64,000 bases of DNA from Pseudomonas sessilinigenes (GTDB lineage: Bacteria > Pseudomonadota > Gammaproteobacteria > Pseudomonadales > Pseudomonadaceae): NCBI RefSeq assembly GCF_003850565.1, contig NZ_CP027706.1, positions 2,604,001 through 2,668,000 of the forward strand, given 5' to 3'. The position numbers and the translations under genes were made by a program. Positions 19,595 through 50,855 of this stretch are shown piece by piece; the stretch's first letter is position 1; the number at the start of each line of letters is the position of its first letter. The notes beneath the pieces are model-generated. The model was given only the letters and a program-made list of their open reading frames with translations. It did not search any database and had not been told where the DNA came from.

Positions 19595-20012
19595 CTGTAG
19601 CCGCTGTCGAGTGCAGCGAGGCTGCGCACGAGGACGTAGTCCTCGCTAAACCTGGCGACGCTTTTTGCCTGACTCCACGCGGTTCTGTGTGCATATCCGT
19701 TGCTGCGGGTGTGGCCACTGGCGGTTCCGCTCTTACAGCGGGTCACTTTGGATGGAGCCCAAAGTAACCAAAGGCTCTTGCCCCCCCACTCGGTGCCTCG
19801 CCCAGGCTCGGCATGCCCTTACTCCGGCATTGATCCGTGGGCCGCCGCCACCGGCCATCCATGGCCGGGGGCGGCTAACCCGGCGTCCTGCCGGGTTGCC
19901 CACGGCTCAATACCTGCGTTCGGCCATCGTGTTTAAAGGGGCGGGTGGATCAAGATCAAAAGCCAAGGCCAAAGCCAAAGCCAAAGCCAAAGCCAAGGCC
20001 AAGGCCAAAGCC
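19595..20012 (+). repeat. Dispersed type 1 repeat, copy B (longest AAAGCC tail)
   Basis: This is nearly identical to copy C (21895-22292) over most of its length and ends with about ten AAAGCC/AAGGCC hexamers, more than any other copy. A diverged fragment of the same element (TTTTCACCTGACCTCATGC) lies just upstream at about 19515-19565. The rest of the 775-base gap before the chemoreceptor gene (20013-20234) holds only its leader. Confidence 0.9.
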
Positions 20013-21894: not shown

Positions 21895-22292
21895 CCTGTA
21901 GCTGCTGTCGAGTGAAGCGAGGCTGCGTACGGGGACGTAGTCCTTGCTAAACCTGGCGATGCTTTTTGCCTGACTCCACGCGGTTCTGTGTGCATATCCG
22001 TTGCTGCGGGTGTGGTCACTGGCGGTTCCGCTCTTACAGCGGGTCACTTTGGATGGAGCCCAAAGTAACCAAAGGCTCTTTGCCCCCTCACTCGGTGCCT
22101 CGCCTAGGCTCGGCATGCCCTCTCTCCGGTATTGATCCGTGGGCCGCCGCCACCGGCCATCCATGGCCGGGGGCGGCTAACCCGGCGTCCTGCCGGGTTG
22201 CCCACGGCTCAATACCTGTATTCGGCCATCGTGTTTAAAGGGGCGGGTGGATCAAGATCAAAAGCCAAAGCCAGATCAAACGCCAAAGCAAC
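21895..22292 (+). repeat. Dispersed type 1 repeat, copy C
   Basis: It includes the full GC-rich core (GCCGCCGCCACCGGCCATCC, then the complementary arm) and a short AAAGCC/AGATCA tail. The downstream junction reads CGCGTTTTACGCGCTTGTTGA and runs into a fragment of a gene whose intact form follows copy D, so this end of the element is associated with that gene family. Confidence 0.9.
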
Positions 22293-25605: not shown

Positions 25606-26007
25606 TCAGCGCCCGAGCTTTTCCAGCGCGGCATCGGCCAGGAAGGACGACCGGCTCTTGATGTTGTGCTCACGGACAAAGCGGTCGATCTGCTGAATCA
25701 CATAACCTGGCAGCGTCACGTTGACCTTCTCGGTCTTGCCCAGGTACGGCGTGATGTCGATGTCCAGCATGCCCCAGCCCATGCCCGCGAAATCGGGGTT
25801 GACGCGGTGTTTGTGGGTGGGTGAGGGCAGGGGAATGGCTTGTCCGGCGCGGGCCAGTTCTTCGAGCATGACGTGGGCGATCTCGATGGCGGCGCTGTAG
25901 GCGCTCTCGAAGGTGTCGCCGGCGGTGACTGCGCCGGGGATGTCGGGAATCTGGATGCCGGTGGCGGTGTGTTCGTCGCCCCATTCGATGCAGATGGGAT
26001 ATTGCAT
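25606..26007 (-). CDS. hicB: HicB antitoxin
   Basis: A protein of 133 residues. The N-terminal HicB domain (YPICIEWGDEHTATGIQIPDIPG, AGDTFESAYSAAIEIAHVMLEEL) is followed by a ribbon-helix-helix-like segment (VNVTLPGYVIQQIDRFVREHNIKSRSSFLADAALEKL). It should neutralise HicA by direct binding and repress the operon. The start is fixed by AGGAG just upstream; the longer frame to 26184 overlaps hicA. It lies 35 bases after hicA. Confidence 0.93.
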   Translation of the reverse strand: MQYPICIEWGDEHTATGIQIPDIPGAVTAGDTFESAYSAAIEIAHVMLEELARAGQAIPLPSPTHKHRVNPDFAGMGWGMLDIDITPYLGKTEKVNVTLPGYVIQQIDRFVREHNIKSRSSFLADAALEKLGR

Positions 26008-26042
26008 GGGGATCTCCTCAATAGGTGTGAAGGGGGCAGGCG

Positions 26043-26225
26043 CTATATCAGTCCGGCCAGTTTTCGGATGGCCCTGACCGTTCCCCGTGGCAGGTCCTTC
26101 TTCGGGTGAGGCACCGGAACGGTGTTGGGTCTGTAAGGATGCTTGAACAGATGGTGGCTTCCGGTTATCCGGTCCAGTATCCATCCTGCGGCTTCAAGCT
26201 CCTTGATTAGCTGTCTGCTTTGCAC
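26043..26225 (-). CDS. hicA: HicA mRNA interferase toxin
   Basis: A protein of 60 residues with the double-stranded-RNA-binding-like HicA fold: VQSRQLIKELEAAGW, then the catalytic-His segment GSHHLFKH and VPVPHPKKDLPRGTVRAIRKLAGL. The ATG at 26231 abuts its AAGGAG (no spacer), whereas a GTG two codons later (26225) sits six bases behind it. The GTG is therefore the better start and gives the usual family length. Cleavage of mRNA independent of ribosomes is the family activity. Confidence 0.92.
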   Translation of the reverse strand: MQSRQLIKELEAAGWILDRITGSHHLFKHPYRPNTVPVPHPKKDLPRGTVRAIRKLAGLI

Positions 26226-26339
26226 CTCCATCTCCTTGTCGGGGTGAGAGGTGCTTTATAACTCCAGGCGCATAGTAACGCAGGTTGAATTGTGTGTCTG
26301 GAGTTATGTATCGGGGCGTGTCGTTCGGGGGTGGTTTTT

Positions 26340-26560
26340 GGCCTTGGACGGTGGGGCAGGCCGTTCAGGGAGGCTTGGGTGTCGAGGTAGAAAATGGCGC
26401 CGTCATCGCATCCTGTCGCGGGCACCGGATCGGCGGCTGCGAAGGTGTTGTGGACGCTGATGCGAACGGCCAAGGTTCTCGCGGATGTTGCTGCGAAGGG
26501 GAATTACCGGGGCGGGGAGTGGGGACCGGCCACGGTGGATTGGAGGGGATGTTTGAGGGG
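26340..26560 (-). pseudogene. Decayed and rearranged copy of the 27371-27960 region
   Basis: On the minus strand GAIFYLDTQASLNGL matches QAVFYLDTQASLSDL of the intact small protein at 27371-27652 before the similarity ends. The adjoining bases (about 26450-26560: GGACGCTGATGCG, CGGCCAAGGT, GGATGTTTGAGG) match 27822-27950 upstream of that gene, in the same order. The whole is a shortened duplicate without an intact reading frame. Confidence 0.7.
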
Positions 26561-26940: not shown

Positions 26941-27340
26941 ACCTGTAGCCGCTGTCGAGCGCAGCGAGGCTGCGTACGAGGACGCAGTCCTCGCCAAACC
27001 TCACCTGGCCCATACGGTTCTGCGTGCATATCCGTTGCTGCGGTCACGGCCTCTATCGGTTCCGCTCTTACAGCGGGTCACTTTGGAAAAGCCCCAAAGT
27101 AACCAAAGGGCTTCTGCCCCCGCATCCGGCGCCTCGCTAGTGCTCGGCGTTCCCTCACTCCGGCATTGCTCCGGGGGCCCGCCGCCACAGGCCATCCATG
27201 GCCTGACGGCGGCTAGCTCGGCATCCATGCCGAGCTGCCCCCTACGCAACGCCTGCGTTCGGCCTCCTGAAGGGGCAGGTGGATCAAGATCAAAAGCCAA
27301 AGCCAAAGCCAAAGCAAGATCAACGGCTGGGGCAAAGCCG
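26941..27340 (+). repeat. Dispersed type 1 repeat, copy D (diverged)
   Basis: Same order of segments as copies A-C: TGTAGCCGCTGTCGAGCGCAG, CATATCCGTTGCTGCGG, CTTACAGCGGGTCACTTTGG, CCAAAGTAACCAAAGG, GTGGATCAAGATC and AAAGCC hexamers. The core is changed (AAAAGCC spacer; CTGACGGCGGCTAGCTCGGC) and resembles copy F. It separates the DUF6429-like gene from the small gene at 27371. Confidence 0.88.
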
Positions 27341-27652: not shown

Positions 27653-28249
27653 GGTCGTTACTCGTTGTAGAGCTTCCACCATCTGCGGCCAAGCAAATTG
27701 AGGGTGGCAGCTGTGTGAGGGTTGGCCGACCGGTAACAACGACACCGGCACACCCGAAGGTGTCCCGCACACAGCCGCCATAACACAGAATCGCAGGCAC
27801 AAAAAAAGCGTCTGCAATGGTGTTTTGGACGCTGATGCGTCGTTGTAATTCGACCGGCCAAGGTCGTTCGCGGATTTTGCCGCGAAGGGCGAACTATAGG
27901 GGCGAGGCGTGAGAGGTGCAACCGTGTGTTGGTGGGTATGTTTGAGGCGGTGTGTCATGGCGATAGCAGTGGCCACGGCAGGTATGCGATGAGGTTTTAA
28001 TCACATTCATGCTTAAACCTCTACATGCCAGAAGTCTGTAGCCACCGTCGAAAACCAGCCTGGTGACAGGCTGGTTTCGGCCAAAAGCGGACGCTCCCGA
28101 GTGGCCACTAACGGCTAGAAGCAAAGTCTTTCCCTTTCAGATTATTAATGGCGAACGTTTACGGACTACTGGTCAAACCGCACCAAAAGCAATTCGCCAC
28201 TATTCGCCTATACTCGGTTCGTCCGCGGTGTCTCCAAGGAGAGATCTCA
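27653..28249. other. Gene-free region before the RloC-like gene
   Basis: Nearly 600 bases without a convincing gene. The left part (27815-27960) has a decayed duplicate at 26440-26560. At 28040-28115 there is CCAGCCTGGTGACAGGCTGG, a near-palindrome, and CGGACGCTCCCGAGTGGCCACTAACGGC, a weak relative of the direct repeat near 31013 and 33842. The last 100 bases are AT-richer and probably contain the promoter of the next gene. Confidence 0.5.
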
Positions 28250-30856
28250 ATGGTCGTACCAGATTTGAATGGGCTAGACGCTCCCGTTACCGACGATTTT
28301 GAAATTTGGCTCGGCGAAAGAAGCCGGTGGTTACAGACAGCTGCCAAGAACCTAATTGAGACCAAGAAGCCACCAACAGACGACCACATCCAAGAGCTTG
28401 CCCGGCTGTGCATGATTGAATCGAAGAAGGAAGAGGACGCGGGCTTCTGCACCGTATCGCCAGGCTCGTTGGCACTTGCTGCAAGTCGTCCTGCCATACG
28501 CATAGAAGGGATCTCAGATGTCTACGGGTTGAATGCGATCAAATCAGGCGCAGCACTACCCGTTGGTTCAGGCAACATCACAGTGTTCTACGGTCAAAAT
28601 GGTTCAGGAAAAAGCGGATATGCACGCCTCCTGAAACAGGCATGCGGCTCAAGGTCAAAAGACGAAATTCACCCTAACGTCTTCATTGAAGAACCTGAGG
28701 CCTGCAAGGCTAATTTCCAAGTATCGGCAGGAGAAAAGAAAGGAACTATTGAATGGACGCTGGCACAGGGTGCAGATCCTTTACTTCGTCACGCCCAGAT
28801 TTTTGACTCCAGAACGGCCACTCAGTACATGGGTAAAAACGAGGCCAGCTACGAGCCAAGTCAAATGAAATTCGTGGCGTCATTGATCGCCGTGTCAGAC
28901 AGGGTTAATCAGCACCTCACCGCATCGAAGAATGCATTGCTGAGCGTATTGCCACAATTCCCAGCGGACTTGGAAATCACTGAGGAACGTAAGTGGCTTG
29001 CGAATATTAAGCCTGCAACGACTGATGCCGTCATCGACAGATTTTGTACGTACACTCCCGAGCACGATGCTGAGCGGATTATCACAGAAGGTGCGCTGGC
29101 CCAGAAGGACGTGGTGGGGCGACTGGCATCAATCACGAAAGAAAAGCAGGGGTTGGCAACAGTTCGGCTAGCTATGAGCCAACTCAAGGATAAGCTCTCC
29201 AACGAAACAGCGCAGATCATCGTAAGTGCCAACGCTGATGCGAAGGGCAAGCGGCAAGCGGCTCAGAAATTTGCTCAACAACTTTTTTCCGAAACTCCAC
29301 TCGAAGGAGTCGGCGAAGCGGTGTGGCAACAGTTATGGGCCCAAGCTCGATTGTTTTCTCAAAATCATGCTTACCCTGGTCAACCATTTCCTGTTGTGGG
29401 TGAGCAGGCAAAGTGTGTGCTCTGCCAGCAAGAGCTCAATGAGGATGCTGGCCATCGGTTGACCCACTTTGAGCAATTTGTTACCGAAGGTTTGGAGTTA
29501 AGCGCAAAACAAGCAGAAGACAAACATAAGGGCTTTGTACAGGCCTTACCCCAATCACCAAAGGAACAGGACTGGTTAGCTCATATGGCCCTGATCAAGC
29601 TGGATCAACAGCAGGCCATCGAACTGCATAAAACTTTGGTGGAAAGACGTTCCGATCTCGAGACCGCTGAAAAAATCGAAAATGTGACCCCATTCGACTG
29701 GTCACTAGTAGATCAAGCACTGGCAGAAGTAACAGAGCAGTTAGTTGGCGAAGAAAAGTCGTTGAACGAGCTTTCTCAAGACGGCAAACGACAGCAAATG
29801 GAGGCGCAACTTCGTAAGCTGAAGGCTCTGCAATGGCTGTCGCAAAACAAACCTGCAGTCGTTGCCGAACGGGACAGGTTGTTGGCTGTTGACCAGTACG
29901 GGAAAGCCATCCGGCTTGCTGCCACCAACACGCTTACTATCAAGAACAACGAGTTGGCGAAATCCGAGGTGGAGGCAGGATATCAAACTCGCTTCGCCGC
30001 CGAACTGAAGCTATTAGGTGGCTCGAGGTTGCCTGTAGCCCCTCAAAGCAAAACAGTCGGTAAAGGCAGAACCACATTCGGACTGACACTCGTTGGCGCG
30101 AAAGGAGTCCGCCCACCAGAACAAATTCTCAGTGAGGGCGAGACAAGAATTGTAGCGTTGGCTGCATTCCTAGCCGATATTACTGGCTCCAATCAAGTAG
30201 CTCCATTTATTTTCGACGACCCGATTTCCTCACTCGATCAAGATTTTGAGGAGCGAGTTGTCGCGCGCCTTGTAGATTTGGCGCAGTCTCGACAGGTCAT
30301 CATCTTCACCCACAGGCTTTCACTGGTGACACTTCTGGAGTCCGCAGTAAAGAAAGTGAAGGAACATCCAGATATACAAGACATCGTCTTTAACGTTCAG
30401 ACGCTTCGACGTCTCGACAAAACATCCGGCATTCTGACGGGACAAAGTGCTCGAGACTCGAAACCGAAGCCGGCTATCAACAAGCTACTTAATGAGAACT
30501 TAGCCCAACTCAAGAGGCACCAGGCAGAGGGCGATGCTGAAAGCTACGACCTCATGGCCAAGAGTGTTTGCAGTGACTTCAGAATCATCGTGGAGCGCAC
30601 TGTTGAGGTGGTAATGCTGAACAGTGTCGTGCTGCGATTTCGCAGGGAAGTGATGACCAAAGGGCTACTGAGGCAGCTAAGTAACATCACTCAGGAGGAT
30701 TGTGATCTGATAGACGACTTGATGACACGATACTCTGTGTATGAGCATTCTCAGGCAGACGATCTTCCAGCGGTACCCCCCGAACTCGCCCAGCTCGAAA
30801 CAGATATGCGGTCGCTTGCGGACTGGATAGAGGGGTACTCGAAGCGAGTGGCCTGA
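28250..30856 (+). CDS. RloC/PrrC-like AAA ATPase, candidate anticodon nuclease (phage defence)
   Basis: A protein of 868 residues, far larger than PrrC and near RloC in size. Walker A FYGQNGSGKSG lies at about 114-123, an ABC-like signature LSEGE at 627-631 and Walker B FIFDDPISSLD at 653-662. Between them are long helical segments around a CVLC pair (Cys389, Cys392), placed as a zinc hook. In the C-terminal domain FRIIVER gives an Arg778/Glu782 pair, and YEHSQ gives His833; this order matches the Arg-Glu-His triad of PrrC/RloC tRNA-cutting domains (AAA_13 family). CAAGGAGAG supports the start over an extension to 28148. No type I restriction genes are adjacent, so it would act alone, like RloC. 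GC content is clearly below that of the core genes. Nuclease activity is inferred. Confidence 0.8.
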   Translation: MVVPDLNGLDAPVTDDFEIWLGERSRWLQTAAKNLIETKKPPTDDHIQELARLCMIESKKEEDAGFCTVSPGSLALAASRPAIRIEGISDVYGLNAIKSGAALPVGSGNITVFYGQNGSGKSGYARLLKQACGSRSKDEIHPNVFIEEPEACKANFQVSAGEKKGTIEWTLAQGADPLLRHAQIFDSRTATQYMGKNEASYEPSQMKFVASLIAVSDRVNQHLTASKNALLSVLPQFPADLEITEERKWLANIKPATTDAVIDRFCTYTPEHDAERIITEGALAQKDVVGRLASITKEKQGLATVRLAMSQLKDKLSNETAQIIVSANADAKGKRQAAQKFAQQLFSETPLEGVGEAVWQQLWAQARLFSQNHAYPGQPFPVVGEQAKCVLCQQELNEDAGHRLTHFEQFVTEGLELSAKQAEDKHKGFVQALPQSPKEQDWLAHMALIKLDQQQAIELHKTLVERRSDLETAEKIENVTPFDWSLVDQALAEVTEQLVGEEKSLNELSQDGKRQQMEAQLRKLKALQWLSQNKPAVVAERDRLLAVDQYGKAIRLAATNTLTIKNNELAKSEVEAGYQTRFAAELKLLGGSRLPVAPQSKTVGKGRTTFGLTLVGAKGVRPPEQILSEGETRIVALAAFLADITGSNQVAPFIFDDPISSLDQDFEERVVARLVDLAQSRQVIIFTHRLSLVTLLESAVKKVKEHPDIQDIVFNVQTLRRLDKTSGILTGQSARDSKPKPAINKLLNENLAQLKRHQAEGDAESYDLMAKSVCSDFRIIVERTVEVVMLNSVVLRFRREVMTKGLLRQLSNITQEDCDLIDDLMTRYSVYEHSQADDLPAVPPELAQLETDMRSLADWIEGYSKRVA

Positions 30857-31011
30857 CCCACATTGAAACGCCGACTGCTTGTTACCTATAGCCTATGCCA
30901 TACGGCGGCCGGAGCGAGTCCATCACAAGAAAATGGTTTTATTTTTCATTGAAAAAACTTTCGGTTATCACATCATCGAACGTTGAATTATGGCAGGTAG
31001 CGGTCGCTTGT

Positions 31012-31118: not shown

Positions 31119-31988
31119 TTAAATAAAATTCCGAAAGCCGCCACTAACATACCAATGGCTGGCTGCGAGCGCTTCATACATCGCCGTATCCCAGGAATTG
31201 GCGTGTTGACCGGCTTTGCCTCGTGCGGTTCCCTGGAGATGTAGCTGAACACCAGCGAATCCAAGGTCACCCCATAAAACACTGAAAGTATCTTTAAGAC
31301 CAGCAAGTTCATTGCTAGCCTCAATTGAAAAGCGTGTAGCAAGCTTATAGCTCAGAAAGTGCGATTCGACTCGTGCCTTCTCTATAGGATCCCAATGCTG
31401 AGGTGGATCAACATAGAATTCCAATACTGGTGGGGTGCTCATAATTAGCCTGGCACGCAACCACTGCTCCTCCACTATAGAGCGCTGCTCGAAATATGGG
31501 TGTAGTGTTTGTTCATTCTCAGAAGTTGCAATTTTCGAACTTTTTCCAGTATTGCAGTCCTTGCATGATGGTACAAGATTCCAAGGAAGCACCGATAGTA
31601 GAGGGAATTTAGTTTTCGGCAAATAATGATCCAAGGTCGTGGCTTGTCCGAAACCGCAGAAGGGGCATTTGCGCCGTGGCGCACTTGCGAGAAGCAAGTC
31701 GTAAATATTACGCGCGGGCTTTCCGATACCAACCATGTGATCAGAATACACTTTCTTGAGTTCTTCTTTTGTTACGGTGCCGATAACGACTTCATTGTTT
31801 CGACAAACATTCGGCGGAATCGAGAACAAATTCCTGACTTGCGCCTTATCGAAGTAATCATGTGCCGCATCGATAATATCGCCTGTAACTAGTGACAGCC
31901 GAGCTCTCAAATTCTGATCCGAAATGCTATTAATGCACAGGTTGAATACATCTTCAGGGTTTTGCATGGGGGGTGTAATGGCTCTCAC
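31119..31988 (-). CDS. HNH endonuclease, Septu PtuB-like
   Basis: A protein of 289 residues whose middle part is an HNH/McrA-type nuclease: CPFC (108-111), LDHYLPK (119-125) with the catalytic His, FPLLSVLPWNLVPSC and C-x-x-C-N (142-146). These four cysteines and the LDHYLPK...NLVP pattern are those of PtuB proteins. It begins with GTG overlapping the TGA of the ATPase gene upstream (AGTGA), with GGGAG about nine bases before; ATG at 31967 is the alternative. The ATPase-nuclease pair fits Septu, in which PtuA oligomers carry PtuB and cut DNA on phage infection. Retron versions also use such a pair, but no reverse transcriptase is present. Confidence 0.85.
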   Translation of the reverse strand: MRAITPPMQNPEDVFNLCINSISDQNLRARLSLVTGDIIDAAHDYFDKAQVRNLFSIPPNVCRNNEVVIGTVTKEELKKVYSDHMVGIGKPARNIYDLLLASAPRRKCPFCGFGQATTLDHYLPKTKFPLLSVLPWNLVPSCKDCNTGKSSKIATSENEQTLHPYFEQRSIVEEQWLRARLIMSTPPVLEFYVDPPQHWDPIEKARVESHFLSYKLATRFSIEASNELAGLKDTFSVLWGDLGFAGVQLHLQGTARGKAGQHANSWDTAMYEALAASHWYVSGGFRNFI

Positions 31989-33571
31989 TTATCAGACTCC
32001 CACCTTCTGTCCCTAGAAATAGTAAGCGAACGTAAGAGGGCTTGTCCTTCGTTGCCGATTTGTCCCGAGTACTGTTGTTCAACCTCTTCGAAGGTCATTC
32101 CGTTCGATACGGCAAGCGCCAATAATTCATGAAAGCCTGATTTATTTACTTCCAGCCCAAATACGTGTCGTGTCAACGTACCTACGTTTTCTGCAAACGT
32201 CTCAGAGTCTGGTGAATCGACTGTAGCCACTAGCCTTGTTCGTGATATTACAGACACACATGATTTAGGTACCTCTTGGAGCACTACGGGCGAATGTGTT
32301 GCAACAATGGCGACTGCGTTTCGATTTGTTAGGAGATCCGATAGAGCTCGAGTGAATGCCGATAAAAGTGGTGGATGCAGATGGCTTTCAGGTTCATCAA
32401 TTAAAACAAGGGTTCTTTCCTCGACAGTTTCAATCAACTGAGTAATTGTAAGCAGCACTATCGCATGACCTGAACTCATGCGATCAAAGAATTTGGCGCT
32501 TACTGCCAAAAACTGTTCCTTCGATTCCGACCAGTCCGCCTCGTAATCGGCTATTAGTTGCAGAAGATTCATCTCTTCAAAGTTATAGTCCGACTCCAGC
32601 TTTTTAATCGCGTTAACCCAGCGAAACCTTTTTGACTGTAAAGCTAGGCATGAGCTTAAGCTTGCTGCCAAGTCAGCACAAAGATCGTCCTTCGTCTTAA
32701 GCCCCCAGCCATGCAACTGATTGTTTTCAATCTTTTTTTTCAGTCCGATATATCTATATCGCATTCCGGCGCTGGCGTCGCTTTGGTTTGGTGGTGGTTC
32801 AAATGGATCGAACGCACTGAATGAAACCGACACTACGCCTGCAAATTCATCTTGGCCCATCAGGCTATCTGTAAGCCATGGTTGAATTTTGAAAAAATGA
32901 CCGTTAGCAAATTTCTCTTTCGAAGGTGTAACGAGTGCATCAATCATACTGTTGAGAATAGTCGTTTTGCCGACACCGTTACGTCCGATTAAAATGTGCA
33001 TGTTAGACGATGGCTTGGAGTCAGGCTCAACTGAGAAGTTGAGGCGCAGTCCCGCTGAACGCTCCGTGGCAGGCTTCACGTAATAGAAATCGTATGGCGT
33101 TAGAGGTGCCTCACCACGTAGGATTTTCGCAAATTGGTGAGTGATGGTCGTGCGATTCACAACTCTCAGCAGAGAAGAAATAAAGGCTTTTTCTTTTTCT
33201 ACTCGCTGGAGCCGTTCGGGAATATAAGCCACATCTCCCAGTGCGTCTAAAATTTCCGACACCGTTGCCGGCTCTAGGTTGTTAATTAGATTTTGATAAT
33301 AATCAGAATCTTGTCCCAGGCTATAAAATTCGTTGCCTAAACGGGAAAATGAACTCGGTATAACATCATCACTCCACCCTTCATTTTGACCTGTAAACGC
33401 AATTTTCAAATTTCCGATAAGCAACGCTGCGCCTTTTTCGTCATAAACAGTCAAGCTAAAAGACGTTTTATATCCGAAATCGTCCCAATTGTCGGGTAAC
33501 AGCACGGCCGTGTTGAAGGCTCGCTTCGAGAAGTGCCCTCGAAGCGGTAATTTTATAAATGTCATGCTCAC
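31985..33571 (-). CDS. AAA/ABC-type ATPase, Septu PtuA-like
   Basis: A protein of 528 residues. An N-terminal region without recognised domain (1-190) is followed by Walker A LIGRNGVGKTTIL (195-207), a signature-like MSSGHA (365-370), Walker B LVLIDEPESHLHPP (388-401) and ATHSPVVLQEVP (424-435), the order of OLD/PtuA-type ATPases. The start is GTG at 33571 six bases after GGGAG; an ATG two codons later is possible. It overlaps the HNH gene by four bases, so the two are made together. Sequence is strikingly AT-rich next to the flanking genes. Anti-phage function is inferred from the pair. Confidence 0.85.
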   Translation of the reverse strand: MSMTFIKLPLRGHFSKRAFNTAVLLPDNWDDFGYKTSFSLTVYDEKGAALLIGNLKIAFTGQNEGWSDDVIPSSFSRLGNEFYSLGQDSDYYQNLINNLEPATVSEILDALGDVAYIPERLQRVEKEKAFISSLLRVVNRTTITHQFAKILRGEAPLTPYDFYYVKPATERSAGLRLNFSVEPDSKPSSNMHILIGRNGVGKTTILNSMIDALVTPSKEKFANGHFFKIQPWLTDSLMGQDEFAGVVSVSFSAFDPFEPPPNQSDASAGMRYRYIGLKKKIENNQLHGWGLKTKDDLCADLAASLSSCLALQSKRFRWVNAIKKLESDYNFEEMNLLQLIADYEADWSESKEQFLAVSAKFFDRMSSGHAIVLLTITQLIETVEERTLVLIDEPESHLHPPLLSAFTRALSDLLTNRNAVAIVATHSPVVLQEVPKSCVSVISRTRLVATVDSPDSETFAENVGTLTRHVFGLEVNKSGFHELLALAVSNGMTFEEVEQQYSGQIGNEGQALLRSLTISRDRRWESDK

Positions 33572-34094: not shown

Positions 34095-34392
34095 TCTGCT
34101 TTTGCTCTTGCTCTGGCTTTTGATCTTCCTGCCCCTTTAAACACGATGGCCGAGCGCAGGCATTTAGCCGTGGGTAACCCGGCAGGGATGCCGGGTTAGC
34201 CGCCCCAGGCCATGGATGGCCTGTGGCGGCGGCCCACGGATCAATGCCGGAGTGAGGGCATGCCGAGCCTAGGCGAGGCACCGAGTGGAGGGGCAGAAGC
34301 CCTTTGGTTACTTTGGGGCTTTTCCAAAGTGACCCGCTGTAAGAGCGGAACCATAAGCCGCCGTTACCGCAGCAATGGATATGTACACCAAC
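34095..34392 (-). repeat. Dispersed type 1 repeat, copy E (inverted)
   Basis: On this strand it runs from GGATATGTACACC through AAAGCCCCAAAGTAACC to CCTTTAAACACGATGG and a tail of CTTTTGCTCTTGCTCTGG, the reverse complement of copies A-D. It closes the accessory island on the right, before the ABC transporter operon. Confidence 0.85.
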
Positions 34393-50561: not shown

Positions 50562-50855
50562 TACATATCCGTTGCTGCGGTCATGGCCAACTTAGGGTTT
50601 CGCCCTTACGGCGAGTCCCTTTTGTCAAACGCCACAAAAGGAACCCAAAAGTCTTGCCCCTCCATACGGCCCCTCGCCTAGGCTCGGGGTGCCCTCGCTC
50701 CGGCATTGCTCCGGAGGGCCCGCCGCCACAGGCCATCCATGGCCTGATGGCGGCTAGCTCGGCATCCATGCCGAGCTGCCCCCTACGCAACGCCTGCGTT
50801 CGGCCTCCTGAAGGGGCAGGCAGATCAAGATCAAGATCAAAAGCCAAAGCAAAGG
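50562..50855 (+). repeat. Dispersed type 1 repeat, copy F
   Basis: It contains CATATCCGTTGCTGCGG, a CAAACGCCACAAAAGG variant of the hairpin, the GCCGCCACAGGCCATCCATGG core like copy D, and an AGATCAAGATCAAAAGCC tail. It runs towards copy G, and the two form a large inverted pair. Confidence 0.85.

Follow-up and report, generated by a model that had tools for sequence, protein, structure and literature searches.

A predicted stand-alone RloC-type anticodon nuclease of a separate, widespread branch in Pseudomonas sessilinigenes

We analyzed a 64,000-nucleotide stretch of the Pseudomonas sessilinigenes chromosome (GCF_003850565.1, contig NZ_CP027706.1, positions 2,604,001 to 2,668,000, forward strand; hereafter the window, from whose first base positions are counted), with a focus on one gene at 28250..30856 on the + strand. 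It encodes an 868-residue RloC-like ATP-binding cassette (ABC) ATPase with a C-terminal HEPN-like nuclease candidate, which PADLOC names PDC-S06. Its sequence and the analogy with characterized enzymes make a stand-alone anticodon nuclease of the RloC type, activated by DNA breaks, the most likely identity of the protein. This kind of protein is known and PDC-S06 is already filed; what we describe is a distinct, widely spread branch with a predicted activity.

RloC was defined as a protein of 658-897 amino acids whose ABC ATPase is interrupted by a helical insert carrying CX2C and which has the C-proximal residues Arg-X3-Glu-X36-52-His, the His often being directly preceded by Ser (PMC2610378). 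In RloC of Geobacillus kaustophilus, alanine at Arg692, Glu696 or His737 is described to abolish tRNA cleavage in vivo (PMC2610378). The defining features are all present in the window protein: it has 868 residues, its ATPase is split (Lys121 versus the signature at 627) by an insert that is helical in the structural model, Cys389 and Cys392 form the central CX2C of a putative zinc hook, and the tail reads Arg778-x3-Glu782-x50-His833. Like RloC, which is usually unlinked to restriction-modification genes, it has none among the neighboring open reading frames (ORFs) scanned, which are PtuA-like genes and unrelated ORFs. The initial annotation had proposed that the protein is either an RloC that has diverged or a member of a new branch. 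Both halves of this proposal find support, since the founding features are there and the branch is a separate one, but it is not new: it is old, widespread and already known to PADLOC. The annotation had also regarded the Glu-to-His distance as too long; it is ordinary, as x50 falls within the published RloC range of Glu-X36-52-His, and the value of about 30 belongs to PrrC (PMC2610378).

The frame at 28148-30856 (+) is open and counts 902 codons from its first ATG. We prefer the ATG at 28250 because the ribosome-binding site AAGGAGAG (28236..28243, + strand, predicted from the sequence) sits 6 bases upstream and because, among the 33 best homologues, 26 are 868-869 amino acids long. The start assumed earlier is thereby kept over the first ATG, and the split ABC motifs, the CVLC pair, Arg778, Glu782 and His833 recur in the 868-residue product where they had been placed before. 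Only the ATPase part scored above the Pfam cut-offs (AAA_13 with 49 bits, SMC_N and AAA_21). Its halves lie about 500 residues apart, with Walker A YGQNGSGKS (residues 114-122, 28589..28615) on one side and, on the other, the ABC signature LSEGE (residues 627-631, 30128..30142), the Walker B/D-loop FDDPISSLD (within FIFDDPISSLD, residues 653-663, 30206..30238) and the switch histidine His688 (30311..30313); all lie on the + strand, the first three being assigned from sequence and alignment and His688 being invariant in the alignment.

The zinc-hook candidate CVLC (residues 389-392, 29414..29425, +) lies close to the midpoint of the split; in the AlphaFold2 (AF2) model the insert is predicted to be helical with Cys389 and Cys392 in a loop between helices. 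Both cysteines are kept in 121/121 rows reaching them in a first alignment (121 rows: the query and 120 homologues, the best of 354). CxxC was also present at all 79 loci that represent the best 80 of the 474 matches confirmed when one genome was scanned for each species. PDB sequence searches returned almost solely ABC-type ATPases among the best 60 of 84 and the best 60 of 114 matches. The fold matches listed for the full model included Rad50/SMC-type heads and coiled coils, and no PrrC or RloC structure was among them. As these searches return heads and coiled coils, the tail was modeled separately.

The predicted catalytic residues Arg778 (30581..30583), Glu782 (30593..30595) and His833 (30746..30748), all on the + strand and assigned by conservation, hold throughout the relatives. 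In the first alignment Arg778 and Glu782 occur in 119/119 and His833 in 118/118 rows reaching them. A second alignment (the window protein and 127 homologues, 128 rows) has the full triad in 125 rows, with a Glu-His spacing of x50 in 123 and x48 in 2; the remaining three (P0023, P0108, P0111) miss all or part of that stretch. At 76 of the 79 loci both triad and CxxC are found, with spacings of x50, x49 and x48 in 59, 11 and 6 cases, while at L065, L099 and L101 CxxC is present and the frame or match stops too early, so that the triad is missing in whole or in part. Within the genus (L021-L039), 16/19 loci carry the triad, and the frames of L027, L034 and L035 are shortened. Close homologues lacking the three residues would have argued against anticodon-nuclease activity, and these counts do not refute it. 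Among 13 diverse sequences (the window protein and 12 others with 24-53% identity to it), only Gly727, Arg778, Glu782 and His833 are invariant past residue 693. Glu786, Arg796, Asp817 and Ser829 are additionally invariant in the tails of the branch (77/77).

The C-terminal all-helical, HEPN-like domain (residues 733-868, 30446..30853, +) was modeled on its own as a confident four-helix fold (AF2; predicted local distance difference test score 91.9, predicted template modeling score 0.87). HEPN RNases were best represented among the PDB fold matches to this model, with no match reaching significance. Searches with the tail sequence found nothing credible in the PDB, and Pfam hits on 77 tails (29 families, each in at most 5/77 members, best E 0.0026) were judged to be chance. 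With respect to the HEPN motif Rx4-6H, the window protein has Arg827-x5-His833; the His is invariant, and position 827 is Arg in 97/118, Lys in 18 and Thr in 3.

A second set of proteins was entered via L003 (818 amino acids), which was found with the AAA_13 model; some close relatives of L003 carry the name 'wobble nucleotide-excising tRNase' in JGI or NCBI annotation. L003 shows the same order of elements, with Cys330/Cys333, LSEGE570 and Arg723-x3-Glu727-x44-His772, at nearly the same distances as the window protein (signature to Arg 153 versus 151, second Cys to signature 237 versus 235). Across 122 rows of this tRNase-annotated branch, Arg and Glu occur in 108/108 and His in 107/108 rows reaching them. 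In comparison, the ATPase of the window protein is preceded by about 80 additional residues: the Walker Lys is residue 90 in L003 versus Lys121, and the PADLOC model for the tRNase-annotated proteins starts at L003 residue 52. This N-terminal helical extension (residues 1-80, 28250..28489, +) contains Trp20, Trp27 and Ala31, which are invariant in the 13 diverse sequences; Pfam and PDB sequence searches with it yielded nothing credible, and it is a possible branch-specific sensor. A tail signature of its own, R-x3-E-x3-E ... YSxxEHSQ, also marks the window branch. In a tree built from 25 ATPase heads, the two branches are split at 100/100 support, and the branch joining them is very long. Left out of it were 5/15 tRNase-branch, 11 PrrC and 8 LmuB rows, which motif extraction missed, and, deliberately, 3 UvrA-like rows. 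Because the defining features are present while no similarity was detected outside the ATPase motifs and the tree split is deep, we regard the window protein as an RloC in the sense of the founding paper and assign it to a separate branch.

Several observations weigh against an anticodon nuclease of this type. BLASTP aligned the window protein with L003 in the ATPase motifs only (27% over 82 residues). Comparison of the tail profiles by hhalign gave probabilities of 0.05-2.6% in 11 runs, not significant with profiles this shallow (effective sequence numbers of about 3.3-4.2; 107/122 and 114/137 tRNase-branch tails used, with tails that were short or lacked the motifs excluded), and the pairing aligned His with His and left Arg-x3-Glu unpaired. 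Non-enzymatic four-helix bundles fit the tail model equally well as HEPN domains. R-x3-E-x36..52-H arose in 2509/20000 shuffles of the 136-residue tail (12.5%), and we dropped the motif alone as proof. A single sequence is thus insufficient, and we consider the triad to be beyond chance because it is conserved across relatives; when the 7 invariant tail letters were placed randomly, the pattern appeared in 421/200000 trials.

The mechanism we propose is modeled on the characterized RloC proteins of G. kaustophilus and Acinetobacter baylyi. The Rad50-like ATPase would sense broken or linear DNA, such as the ends left by a phage degrading host DNA, and the ATPase and zinc hook would restrain the nuclease until DNA ends trigger ATP-driven activation. 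Once activated, the HEPN-like tail would cut tRNA using Arg778, Glu782 and His833. We expect a metal-free cut within the anticodon loop, affecting a few tRNAs such as tRNA-Glu or tRNA-Gln and possibly excising the wobble nucleotide. Translation in the infected cell would then halt, leading to growth arrest or abortive infection. For the characterized proteins, purified G. kaustophilus RloC is described as being turned on by its ATPase in the presence of linear DNA, break inducers are reported to activate A. baylyi RloC, and activation of the latter is also reported in restriction-modification-deficient mutants (PMC3874168).

Outside the window, about 61 kb past the gene, the chromosome carries a type I operon hsdR-hsdS-prrC-hsdM, assigned with Pfam (L146:5592-12501; G000:C1:2695591-2702500). 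The absence of a restriction-modification partner noted in the initial annotation applies to the neighboring ORFs scanned and not to the chromosome. The window gene and the start of the operon's prrC (L146:7231-8364) are about 62 kb apart; the encoded PrrC (377 amino acids, 443 bits) has the triad Arg301-x3-Glu305-x32-His. In the genus, prrC occurs in 13/296 genomes and the window gene in 26/298 (E <=1e-60). No association between them was seen: one genome, the present one (G000), is in both lists, with about 1.1 expected if the 298 and 296 genomes are taken to be the same.

Given this operon, a type I restriction enzyme might silence the window protein and release it when a phage disables restriction, as for PrrC. 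All three subunits are encoded there, and the RloC authors leave restriction in trans possible (PMC3874168). We nevertheless judge this the least probable of the explanations considered here, as the operon already has its own prrC, A. baylyi RloC is reported to be activated in restriction-modification-deficient mutants, and annotated restriction genes were found in the fetched flanks of 1/8 plasmid relatives inspected (L019), and these are type II. Very improbable, too, is a tail without enzymatic function, in which four helices would mediate dimerization or DNA binding within an SMC-like protein acting directly on invading DNA. The Rad50/SMC-like head and the equally good fit of non-enzymatic bundles would agree with such a role; a purely structural bundle, however, would not be expected to need polar residues in the RloC catalytic pattern, which make up 3/4 of the residues invariant past 693 in the diverse set.

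A different target for an otherwise active HEPN RNase, be it mRNA, rRNA or another tRNA region, is harder to dismiss, even though we consider it unlikely. HEPN domains include the mRNA cutters RNase LS and LsoA (PMC3710099), and both the branch's own invariant residues (Glu786, Arg796, Asp817, Ser829) and the missing profile-detectable similarity to the tRNase-annotated tails could reflect another substrate. On the other hand, RloC has the same layout, with Arg-x3-Glu-x36..52-His spaced almost equally from the ABC signature, which speaks against such a target. We tentatively suggest, at less than even odds, that the proteins form a second, deeply separated branch of stand-alone, DNA-break-triggered tRNA nucleases with their own N-terminal sensor and catalytic signature, spread across a dozen or more phyla and plasmids and filed as a mere candidate; here the protein would be part of a two-tier arrangement with restriction-guarded PrrC, responding to two triggers. 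If so, a widespread phage-defense candidate gains a concrete and easily tested activity (three residues, one assay), tRNA-cutting immunity extends beyond the characterized RloC proteins, and one chromosome allows a PrrC guarded by restriction to be compared with an RloC-like enzyme that triggers itself.

In the retrieved texts on RloC, PDC-S06, PrrC and ABC ATPase/HEPN/tRNA (searched without bioRxiv preprints) we recognized no test of the window branch, and the phrase 'wobble nucleotide-excising tRNase' returned no paper. PDC-S06 is mentioned among unpublished candidates from Payne et al. that another tool names differently (PMC11811056). Of 38 Pseudomonas aeruginosa strains with PDC-S06, 74.4% are given as phage-resistant, which is a correlation only (PMC10855318). 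RloC, opposite to this, correlated with susceptibility of Pseudomonas in work on cherry canker (PMC12447246), and another report lists RloC as not tested (PMC12322248).

Distribution of the gene is patchy and includes chromosomes and plasmids. Many of the 79 loci are metagenome bins; going by their names, we take them to belong to Pseudomonadota, Bacillota, Actinomycetota, Bacteroidota, Cyanobacteria, Acidobacteria, Chloroflexi, Myxococcales, Spirochaetes and others, and one presumably to a Methanosarcinales archaeon. With tblastn (E <=1e-5), 267/72,556 plasmid records matched, of which 141 cover at least 80% of the query, all with less than 60% identity; none of 50,697 phage records had a match. 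Among the annotated plasmid neighbors are successive recombinase genes (three in L020, two in L015) and gmtX (L016). The plasmid relatives L014 and L018 adjoin SbcCD-like or YhaN/exonuclease genes.

Judging by sequence comparison, the gene appears to travel as a single-gene cassette, because blastn homology in two other Pseudomonas genomes ends near the gene borders. G004 (locus L040) shares 28077..30892 (+) at 97%, with no homology in the fetched flanks (pieces of at least 100 bases, E <=1e-10; 16 kb of G004 compared). In G054, the gene is 91% identical and the homology to the window is confined to 28162-30865. PADLOC found just one marginal mad8 match on the 8 ORFs of L040 and L041. An empty-site comparison defined no boundaries, as matches to the two flanking genes never occurred together in the sampled relatives.

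Downstream and convergent to the gene lies a Septu-like pair at 31119-33571 (-), consisting of a PtuA-like ATPase (PDC-M01A, 658 bits) and its partner PDC-M01B (338 bits). Just 5' of the gene we found a C4 antisense RNA (81 bits) and its a1/b1 target element (50 bits) at 27700-27785 and 27847-27899 (-). C4 is the immunity RNA of P1/P4-like phages, and the pair is possibly a remnant of a phage or satellite. Further upstream, a HicB-like antitoxin gene (133 bits, 25606-26184, -) has beside it an 88-amino acid frame (26207-26473), which had no Pfam or PHROGs match and is possibly a HicA-like toxin. Five matches to Rfam TwoAYGGAY (44-57 bits, cut-off 43; 19819-19921, 22121-22223, 27175-27240, 34152-34255 and 50716-50781) may be repeated palindromic elements instead of riboregulators.

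Comparison with known systems places the protein closest to RloC. PADLOC model PDLC04893 of PDC-S06, a phage defense candidate to which the retrieved texts assign no mechanism, matches it end to end (1133 bits, profile positions 4-859 of 862), and other models named PDC-S06 match the tRNase-annotated branch, so that one name spans both. The model mad3 outscored the tRNase-branch models and was judged unspecific: its 6 strong matches in 200 genomes, one of them on this chromosome, are frames of 944-1050 codons, which by their length we take to be UvrA. Rad50 and SbcC, whose partners are Mre11 and SbcD, share the ATPase head and a coiled-coil insert with CxxC; the window protein differs in having a 136-residue tail and no Mre11/SbcD-type gene among the neighboring ORFs scanned. 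Rad50/SbcC are described as being without a C-terminal domain (PMC2610378). PrrC shares the ABC ATPase and the Arg-x3-Glu...His tail, but it has 341-416 amino acids, no coiled-coil/zinc-hook insert and, in Escherichia coli, a triad of Arg320-Glu324-His356 with a Glu-His spacing of x31 (PMC2610378), whereas the window protein has 868 residues with the insert and its gene is not inside a type I hsd operon. Against the general description of RloC, in which Ser often precedes the His, the window protein has Glu before His833; with RloC of G. kaustophilus and A. baylyi, as judged from their published description, it shares the split Rad50-like ATPase, the helical insert with CX2C, Arg-X3-Glu-X36-52-His, the lack of linkage to restriction-modification and a broad, sporadic spread.
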